NCBI GenBank assembly: GCA_902560855.1
Contig: CACENJ010000008.1
Coordinates: 1-43,442 of the forward strand
Reading direction: 5' to 3'
From: an uncultured Pelagibacteraceae bacterium
Lineage (GTDB): Bacteria > Pseudomonadota > Alphaproteobacteria > Pelagibacterales > Pelagibacteraceae
Length of the DNA: 43,442 nucleotides
The notes below the pieces were generated by a model. That model did not search any database. It was not told the DNA's origin and was given only the letters and a program-made list of their open reading frames with translations. Made by a program: the position numbers and the translations under genes. Shown in pieces: positions 23,610 to 25,632 of the stretch (the stretch's first letter is position 1; the number at the start of each line of letters is the position of its first letter).

Positions 23610-24728
23610 ATGAGTAAAATAATAAATTCACTTGGCTTATATAAAGAACCAAAAGATACGACTGTAGTTGTTGCAATGTCTGGAGGCGTAGACTCATCTA
23701 CGGTAGCAGGAATCATGAAGAACGAAGGTTATAATGTAATTGGCATAACATTAAAACTGTATGATGATGCAAAAAAAAATATAAAATCGAGACAGTGCTG
23801 CGCAGGACAAGATATAATGGATGCCAAAAGAGTTGCTCACAAACTGAACATTAAACATAAGATTTTATATTATCAAGACAAGTTTAAATCAGCAGTTGTT
23901 AATAATTTTATAGATAGCTACCTTAATGGAGAAACACCGATTCCTTGTGTTCAATGCAATCAAACAGTTAAATTTAAAGATTTATTTGAAGAAGCAAAAA
24001 CTTTAAATGCTGATGCATTGATAACTGGACATTATGTAAAAAGCATAACAGAGAACAATATTACCAACATGTATCAAGCAGACGATATAAATAAAGATCA
24101 GAGTTATTTTTTATTTAGCACAACTAGAAAACAATTAAATTTTTTGAGATTTCCACTAGGAAGATTAAATAAAAATCAAACAAGAGAAATAGCACATAAA
24201 CTTGAATTAAATGTAGCTGATAAACCAGATAGTCAAGACATATGTTTCGTTCCAAACGGAGATTACGCTTCAGTTATAGAAAAATTTAGACCAAATTCTC
24301 ACAAGAAAGGGAATATAAAAAAAATAGATGGTTCAGTCGTAGGAGTGCATGATGGCATTATTAACTTTACAATAGGTCAAAGAAAAGGAATAAAAGTTGC
24401 AGATAAGGAACCTCTTTATGTAATAGAAATTAATCCTACAAAAAATGAAATTATAGTAGGACCTAAAAAAAACTTAATGAAAAAAAAAATAAAATTAAAA
24501 GATTTAAACTTATTAAATCAAGATCAGAGCGAACTTGAAAAAGAACTTTTTGTTAAAGTTAGATCAACAGGAAAGTTAATTAAAGCTAAGGTTGAATTGC
24601 TCAATGGGTCTGCAAATGTGCATTTAGAAGAAGAAGAATATGGTATTTCGCCAGGTCAAGCATGTGTTTTTTATTCAAAAAAAAAAGAAGGTTTTAAAGT
24701 TTTAGGCGGAGGTTGGATTAAAAAATAG
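23610..24728 (+). CDS. mnmA: tRNA 2-thiouridine(34) synthase MnmA
   Basis: 372 residues. The PP-loop M-S-G-G-V-D-S-S is at about residues 23-30, the catalytic Cys is in P-C-V-Q-C-N near 110, the second Cys in D-S-Q-D-I-C-F near 210, and the G-Q-R-K-G and C-terminal S-P-G-Q-A-C-V-F-Y motifs are present. It thiolates U34 of Glu, Gln and Lys tRNAs with ATP and a persulfide relay. It is monocistronic here, divergent from DUF3553/cysQ and followed by a structured RNA candidate. Confidence 0.97.
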
Positions 24729-24746
24729 TTATCCCCATTGTCCACA
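24729..24746 (+). other. Two adjacent DnaA-box-like 9-mers
   Basis: TTATCCCCA (24729-24737) is followed without a gap by TTGTCCACA (24738-24746). Each differs by one base from the consensus DnaA box TTATCCACA. They lie directly after the mnmA stop. Two boxes alone do not make an origin, and chance cannot be excluded. Confidence 0.3.
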
Positions 24747-24821
24747 AGATTTTTGTTTAGAAAAAAAATCAACTAAAAAGTGATACAAAACTAATATTAA
24801 ATAAAATAATGTATAAATTAA

Positions 24822-25003
24822 TTAAGAGGCAACTCTTAACTGGCCAGCTAAGGAAAAACCGAGAGGTTCAAGCTTAGCGGGCAGAAAGTCTTGCAGAGTA
24901 GCGCTAAAATTGTAAGGCGGTCATGGCTTGGCGGTAGCGCATACAACGACGAGCCAAATCTTATCACACGCCCGAAAGGGTGTGTGATTGGGGTTTCCAG
25001 CTG
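24822..25003 (+). ncRNA. GC-rich structured RNA candidate, class not recognised
   Basis: About 180 bases of markedly higher GC than the surroundings and no convincing ORF. Hairpin 1 is TTAAGAG-GCAA-CTCTTAA (24822-24839), a 7-base stem with a GNRA loop. A long-range closing helix pairs CAGCT (24845-24849) with AGCTG (24999-25003) and GGAAA (24852-24856) with TTTCC (24994-24998). Inside are TTAGCG/CGCTAA, a GGCTTG.../CGAGCC stem, and an 11-base stem ATCACACGCCC/GGGTGTGTGAT (24963-24988) capped by GAAA. Two GNRA loops on the plus strand favour that strand. I checked for hallmark motifs of RNase P, tmRNA, SRP RNA and common riboswitches and found none; 6S RNA or a marine RNA such as an IMES type remains possible. 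Confidence 0.75.
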
Positions 25004-25632
25004 AAAAAAGTCATCAAATAAAAAATCTGAATTAAAAAGAAATAATTCCATGAAATTATATTTTTAATTTCTGGAAAACTTTCTATTTTTGCTACAAGTA
25101 TTGGAACTAGCAGTATACCTAGTGATATCAGTACGACTGATAGTAAAAGTTTAGCTTTTATAAAATTGCGATTAAAATTTGACTCATTTTTAAGCTTAAA
25201 ATATTGAAGGGCTAAAAGAAGCTGAGCAATAACTGTAAAAAATATATATATATAAATGCCGATTTTTCTAAAAAATCTGTAAATATTGCTTTCACCTAAA
25301 AAAAAAATATATAAAAAAAGAAATAATACTGAAACCACCCCAATTACATAGGAAATTGTTATCTGTTTATTATTTTTAATTAATGGCTTTAATTTTAAAA
25401 AGTTTTCTCTCCAATAAAGTAATAGAAAAATGCCAAAAGAATACATAAAAGGCTTAAAAAAATATTTAACAGGCTCATATCTACCAACTCTTGAAATAGA
25501 GGTGCAACCATCTAGGTTTGGAATGCAAAAAGGAACTAGGTCGAGTCTTACTGACACGATATAAGATACTACCACTGTAAAAAGTGGCAAAGCAAATACA
25601 ATAAAAGATAAATACCTTATATTTATCCTCAT
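24964..25632 (-). CDS. Six-helix membrane protein, possibly Frag1/DRAM-like
   Basis: 222 residues with about six hydrophobic helices. After the first helix comes an extracytoplasmic loop C-I-P-N-L-D-G-C-T-S-I-S-R-V-G-R-Y-E-P with two cysteines, then helices near residues 60-75, 92-112, 127-145, 160-180 and 194-214. The S-I-S-x-x-G-x-x-x-P pattern in the first loop recalls Frag1/DRAM/Sfk1-type proteins; this is tentative. The last 14 codons run into the RNA candidate at 24822-25003 on the opposite strand, so the true 3' end or the RNA boundary deserves care. Confidence 0.6.
   Translation of the reverse strand: MRINIRYLSFIVFALPLFTVVVSYIVSVRLDLVPFCIPNLDGCTSISRVGRYEPVKYFFKPFMYSFGIFLLLYWRENFLKLKPLIKNNKQITISYVIGVVSVLFLFLYIFFLGESNIYRFFRKIGIYIYIFFTVIAQLLLALQYFKLKNESNFNRNFIKAKLLLSVVLISLGILLVPILVAKIESFPEIKNIISWNYFFLIQIFYLMTFFSWKPQSHTLSGV

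Follow-up and report, generated by a model that had tools for sequence, protein, structure and literature searches.

SAR11 bacteria rank among the most numerous cells in the ocean. Marine sequence yielded two RNA families named in one series, IMES-1 and IMES-2, and the original description of IMES-2, by Weinberg in 2009, is said to have included its transcription in sea water. 6S RNA is a standalone structured RNA of similar length to IMES-2, which forms a rod with a central bubble. Our literature search found no paper on IMES-2 itself, and the name was mentioned once, in a squid genome paper. For 'Cand. P. ubique' HTCC1062, Meyer 2009 (PMC2704228) lists RNase P, SRP and tmRNA; the terms '6S RNA', 'mnmA' and 'trmU' occur 0 times in the main text of that paper. 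SAR11 start sites have been mapped to HTCC7211, according to PMC5069720.

Here we describe a GC-rich patch in a window of 43,442 nucleotides, the whole stretch analysed, from an uncultured Pelagibacteraceae bacterium. In all likelihood the patch is a genuine gene for a small RNA, of the catalogued IMES-2 family of SAR11-type ocean bacteria. The family itself was already known as RF02035. Added here are the probable gene boundaries, the host range, the gene contexts and a supported loop-loop contact, which make the function of IMES-2 testable.

Identity and extent of the RNA

The RNA is a member of the IMES-2 family. The Rfam match covers the model from end to end (positions 1-141 of 141, not cut off) and scores about three times the cut-off, with an E-value of 6.1e-42 (Table 1). 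IMES-2 is the sole Rfam family above cut-off across the whole window; a permissive search of 24700-25100 returned two further matches, with E-values of 1 and 5.3. RNase P RNA and SRP RNA gave nothing above the Rfam cut-off in the window. The same holds for tRNA and tmRNA, of which ARAGORN also found 0 genes.

The original prediction placed an unassigned structured RNA at 24822-25003 and reported no match to a known class. It correctly recognised a structured non-coding RNA in a low-GC, SAR11-type genome, and its coordinates lie near the transcript, which we put at about 24815-25000. The class, in contrast, already exists as RF02035: the Rfam search including the IMES types, which the prediction itself had proposed, returned IMES-2, and the curated family takes away part of the novelty. 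The predicted GC island is borne out: 100-base windows at 24850-24999 have 50-52% GC, and the RNA-free windows between 23800 and 26199 have 16-40%. Strong structure was rightly expected as well, since the stretch 24815-25012 folds at -73 kcal/mol (z -5.85), and 0 of 200 shuffles folded as low.

Relatives were collected for comparison. A 20-base pattern search of genome_contigs found at least 119 stretches; among the matches listed (80 of at least 119), 79 come from records named for Pelagibacter, Pelagibacteraceae or Pelagibacterales and one, L154, from a cyanobacterial MAG. The records of the named relatives are SAR11 single-cell genomes and MAGs. The listed matches, together with 20 of 51 loci from genomes, make up 100 loci. 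R1, a model derived from 24 relatives, recognised every locus but L154 (99 of 100). The alignment fitted to R1, termed A2, has 99 rows (90 distinct) and takes in all 99 matches, including L113 and L153, which are cut at the locus ends, and the partial L141.

Table 1 Features of the IMES-2 unit in the window
Feature	Position	Strand	Remarks
Upstream box: two adjacent TTATCCACA-like 9-mers, TTATCCCCA and TTGTCCACA	24729-24746	+	conserved among relatives
-35-like element GTGATA	24780-24785	+	G[TC]GAT conserved
Probable -10 region, AT-rich	24802-24811	+	putative, placed by eye; TGATAAT or TGATTTAAT-like in relatives
Probable IMES-2 transcript	24815-25000	+	from the Rfam match and the adjacent 3' hairpin; both ends approximate
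RF02035 IMES-2 full-length match	24815-24957	+	158.9 bits, cut-off 54.7
Hairpin P1, GCAA loop	24822-24839	+	helix 1: 100% of cells paired, 5/7 pairs changed on both sides
Arm P2/P3, GAGA loop	24840-24884	+	helices 2 and 3: 94.4% and 90.2% of cells paired
Hairpin P4	24888-24918	+	helix 4: 95.7% of cells paired, 8/8 pairs changed on both sides
Loop-loop helix, P4 side (GCGCUA)	24901-24906	+	pairs with 24935-24940
Hairpin P5	24925-24955	+	helix 6: 88.6% of cells paired, 5/9 pairs changed on both sides
Loop-loop helix, P5 side (UAGCGC)	24935-24940	+	pairs with 24901-24906
3' hairpin P6, terminator-like	24956-24996	+	no run of at least four U after P6 in the window

Comparison of the loci indicates that the IMES-2 unit is wider than the Rfam model, to which a 3' hairpin and a conserved upstream region can be added. 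All 60 distinct tails directly after P5 (L113, L153 and L141 excluded) fold as one hairpin, P6, with a mean of -21.5 kcal/mol and a mean z of -6.6; every fold is at or below -18.0 kcal/mol and z -4.25. A run of at least four T is present in 74 of 96 tails (L113 and L153 excluded) and absent from that of the window. In a stricter stretch just past P6, 21 of 95 tails (L113, L153, L141 and L178 excluded) have no such run. Nineteen of the 21, the window included, are among the 34 loci in the mnmA context, so termination is less certain there.

A small protein encoded inside the unit was considered and rejected, as no frame is common to the loci and the longest frames differ in start and length (the longest is a frame of 29 aa starting at offset 102 in 15 of 96 loci, one of 25 aa starting at 111 in 14 and one of 12 aa starting at 112 in 12, among others). 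On the minus strand of the window, a convergent membrane-protein frame (24964-25632) reaches into P6. Its counterpart ends 26-34 bases farther from the RNA in six of seven relatives, and L037 has an extra frame in between; the copy in the window seems to have a run-on C-terminus.

Upstream of the RNA, G[TC]GAT is found at -33 to -36 from the model start in all 94 distinct upstream sequences (shuffled rate 0.02). A TTATCC-type box, in the loose form termed box 1, occurs at -95 to -65 in 83 of the 94 (shuffled rate 0.04), and in a stricter form in 76 (0.14). These rates refer to plain shuffles, and L141 and one sequence that was too short are excluded. In the mnmA context most copies of the box sit around -75, in the other context around -86, a shift of roughly one helical turn; in the window, which belongs to the mnmA context, the position is -86. 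The box heads the unit in three gene contexts. Independent transcription of the unit is well supported by these upstream sequences, which would serve as its promoter.

The two adjacent 9-mers of the box resemble DnaA boxes. A replication origin is not supported: the window contains 14 TTATCCACA-like sites with one mismatch allowed, against 14.1 expected by chance. In a coarse GC skew, the RNA falls close to the cumulative maximum for G015 and close to a local minimum for G001; the measure is weak, as its 10 tiles of 20 kb per genome span 14.5% and 16.5% of the two genomes. A regulon sharing the box was also sought, and none was shown. With up to two mismatches allowed, the pattern matched 7 sites, spread over 5 of 8 genomes, and 1 in the backwards control; three of the 7 sites are the IMES-2 box itself (G265, G001, G048) and four lie elsewhere. 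The pattern was too strict to speak against a regulon, as three further carriers in the search (G000, G015, G038) have the IMES-2 box and it was missed there.

Covariation of the stems and the P4-P5 loop contact

The original prediction suggested looking for covariation across relatives, which proved strong. On A2, the stems and the loop-loop helix are paired in 94.3% of cells, and 32 of 45 pairs changed on both sides among the 90 distinct rows, although the fitting of A2 to the stems biases the stem counts towards them. None of 500 shuffles reached the pairing or the both-side counts, and slid partners give 33-40% pairing. The MAFFT alignment A1, comprising 24 sequences and not fitted to structure, gives 92.0% pairing with 27 of 45 pairs changed on both sides.

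Both-side changes affect 7 of 11 pairs in helix 2 and 4 of 4 in helix 3; in 52 of 89 rows one P2 position (columns 35-66) does not pair. In P5, one of the nine pairs is non-standard in every one of 87 rows, and L035 has a rewritten P5 stem. Within P1, 88 to 90 of 90 rows share the same pair at five of the seven positions. Conservation of the CAGAAA segment, which lies between P2 and P4, reaches 90% or more. L141 carries, at 263-381, a partial, odd IMES-2 copy without the P5 loop or the 3' hairpin, which may reflect decay or an assembly error.

The GNRA loops described from the single sequence are present, GCAA in P1 and GAAA in the 3' hairpin of the window, and GAGA also tips the P2/P3 arm. 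The long-range closing helix of the same description is not supported. In the single-sequence fold it comprises only 3 bp, between 24840-24842 and 24998-25000, and the comparative structure pairs the same CUG locally with the CAG at 24882-24884 in all 89 distinct rows having letters; these pairs are invariant and so give no covariation signal. The 3' partner CCAG is rare, occurring in 4 of 95 tails (the window, L036, L039 and L148), and CCAGCTG is found in the window alone.

Covariation supports a 6-bp kissing helix between the loops of P4 and P5, which could form in cis or between molecules. The structure line of RF02035 printed by cmscan draws both loops unpaired; such models carry no pseudoknots. 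The helix was also absent from the model to which A2 was fitted. Taken by itself, it is paired in 96.6% of 522 cells, and three of the six pairs changed on both sides. The 12 both-side cells compare with a shuffle mean of 1.2, and 0 of 500 shuffles reached as many. Sliding the partners lowers pairing to 4-56%. Two measures stand against the helix: further pair types are not above shuffles (361 of 500), and a slide of +1 yields 16 both-side cells against 12, though with 27% pairing.

The loop-loop helix was also traced on a tree of 96 rows built from 119 columns with the two loops excluded (L113, L153 and L141 left out), in which 51 of 84 inner branches are weak. It requires at least four compensated changes. 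UCGCU/AGCGA arose by one change and GUACU/AGUAC by one to two, while GCACU/AGUGC was compensated twice, as forced by supported branches. Incomplete states also exist: UCGCU/AGCGC, in 16 of 96 rows, keeps one U-C mismatch, and GCGCU/AGCGA keeps a G-A mismatch in one row (L149). The sequence GGUAGCGC resembles a tRNA D-loop. A tRNA mimic was rejected on this point, as the loops vary (AGUACU, AGCACU/AGUGCU and others) yet stay mutually paired.

If the loop-loop helix formed between molecules, IMES-2 would be a small self-assembling RNA, a dimer or a chain. AGCGCU and AGUACU loops are self-complementary, and in L035, L112 and L155 both loops read AGUACU. The larger bacterial RNAs GOLLD, ROOL and OLE homo-oligomerise, partly via kissing loops, according to PMC12286853. 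Rows with GCACU/AGUGC or UCGCU/AGCGA, however, keep the P4-P5 pairing without self-complementary loops, so that simple pairing between two copies of one loop does not explain those rows; moreover, the neighbouring hairpins could make the contact in cis. We regard self-assembly as unlikely.

Gene contexts and occurrence

The RNA is found in several genomic settings. A tyrosine-recombinase-like and/or ogt-like gene adjoins it in 62 of 99 loci, and mnmA in 34, of which 33 also have the membrane-protein gene seen in the window. Two loci, of genus g2, are near neither, and one (L141) is odd. The gene names come from reading the proteins and are provisional. The tyrosine-recombinase-like gene lies about 480-1300 bases upstream of IMES-2 (L043, L044, L045, L048 and others). 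It has glycosyltransferase-like genes nearby, is what most often adjoins IMES-2 in the ogt context, and also occurs in genomes without the RNA.

Seven genomes of the same genus without IMES-2 (G003, G005, G011, G013, G020, G024 and G026; 99-100% complete) keep the recombinase and ogt genes. In G003 the gap between them is 265 bases long, has a small frame and does not exceed 34% GC in any 80 bases, whereas the corresponding gap of 548 bases in G048 contains the RNA. In the other six the gap is longer and looks coding. Either loss or gain of IMES-2 may account for the difference.

The occurrence of the RNA in at least three gene contexts and its absence between the same neighbours in G003 argue for a standalone RNA that is neither a part of mnmA nor a fixed part of either neighbour. 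The RNA could otherwise be read as a 3' UTR or attenuator element of mnmA, given that its model start is 86 bases past the mnmA stop codon in the window. The position downstream of mnmA, named in the original prediction, holds for the window and the mnmA-context loci and fails for the 62 loci elsewhere, which makes mnmA incidental. With the recombinase-like and/or ogt-like context predominating, two loci in a third context, and G[TC]GAT upstream of every copy compared, an mnmA element is highly improbable.

Of 297 genomes of the order, sampled evenly from a larger group, 140 have IMES-2 by the Rfam model, in one copy each; one of the 140 matches, in G230, is a piece at positions 29-91 of its contig. 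The carriers fall in 4 of 11 genera. Genomes of at least 90% completeness and no more than 5% contamination divide into 75 with and 75 without a match, so IMES-2 would be dispensable in many SAR11 bacteria. A class-wide search, whose strict filters can lose weak matches, gave 3 of 385 genomes, all in the family of the window. In viral_contigs, each of two exact patterns gave 0 hits, which concerns exact phage copies only.

R1 matched 149 of the 297 genomes. The nine extra genomes and a second hit in G189 all score below 30 bits, and these ten places were treated as false. Eight were inspected, G244 and G225 not among them: seven are one conserved coding junction, and that in G189 is an unrelated stretch. 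The junction (L074-L077, L079-L081), as read from its sequence rpoA-rplQ, mimics P1 and the P2 arm with per-genome E-values down to 1.5e-6, which calls for caution with weak model hits.

Proposed function and relation to described RNAs

We propose that IMES-2 is a standalone structured regulatory RNA with its own promoter and terminator-like hairpin, which would act by binding a protein in preference to Hfq-assisted pairing with mRNAs. We consider this proposal about as apt to be right as wrong. The promoter, comprising the upstream box and the -35 and -10 elements, would make a non-coding RNA of about 185 nt that folds into P1, the P2/P3 arm, P4, P5 and P6. The P4-P5 kissing contact would fix the 3' half, while P1 and the CAGAAA segment would be the surface that is read. 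The near-invariance of these two elements amid freely covarying stems fits such a protein-read surface, and IMES-2 may thus bind a protein.

No Hfq (PF17209) was detected in any of 13 genomes, 11 of which are at least 90% complete and one of which, that of the window, is 75% complete; the same search detects it in 5 of 14 controls. 6S RNA (RF00013) was found at E-values up to 1 in 0 of 97 genomes of the order, that of the window included, and in 5 of 14 controls, among them Caulobacter. The 97 genomes include some with and some without IMES-2. These results disfavour both Hfq-assisted antisense action and a simple exchange of 6S for IMES-2.

A trans-acting RNA that pairs with its targets without Hfq, using a loop or junction as the seed, would agree with the standalone unit, its 3' hairpin and the frequent T run in the tails, and conserved unpaired segments are available in the loops and between P2 and P4. 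Against it, no Hfq was detected, the conserved loops of P4 and P5 complement one another, and the RNA is heavily structured, without a long open stretch. This reading is possible and, in our view, doubtful.

It is very unlikely that IMES-2 replaces 6S RNA as the RNA polymerase regulator of SAR11. Such a role would suit a single-copy RNA in genomes where the 6S search found nothing while detecting 6S in controls. However, 6S was likewise not found in IMES-2-free genomes (e.g. G003, G005, G011 and G013), so there is no exchange pattern. The IMES-2 fold also differs from the 6S rod, and 24700-25100 has no 6S match up to an E-value of 10. A broader picture, in which a self-assembling IMES-2 acts in cells without detected 6S or Hfq and the unit of box, promoter, RNA and hairpin is moved or lost as a cassette, is distinctly improbable.

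A conserved single-copy RNA carried by nearly half of the genomes of the order, where searches found neither 6S nor Hfq, offers a handle on RNA regulation in SAR11.

Among the described RNAs, IMES-1 (RF02034) gave no match at its cut-off in any of 97 genomes of the order or in the window; a single match, in G052, fell below it at 27.4 bits. The 6S model has 187 positions and no match in the 97 genomes. OLE, GOLLD and ROOL are likewise structured bacterial RNAs with covariation-supported kissing loops, as given in PMC12286853, where they are described as large and shown to be multimers. The closest relation is with RF02035 itself. The RNA in the window has the same P1, P2/P3, P4 and P5, failed no defining feature tested, and extends beyond the model by the putative P6 hairpin, the upstream elements and the predicted loop-loop helix.
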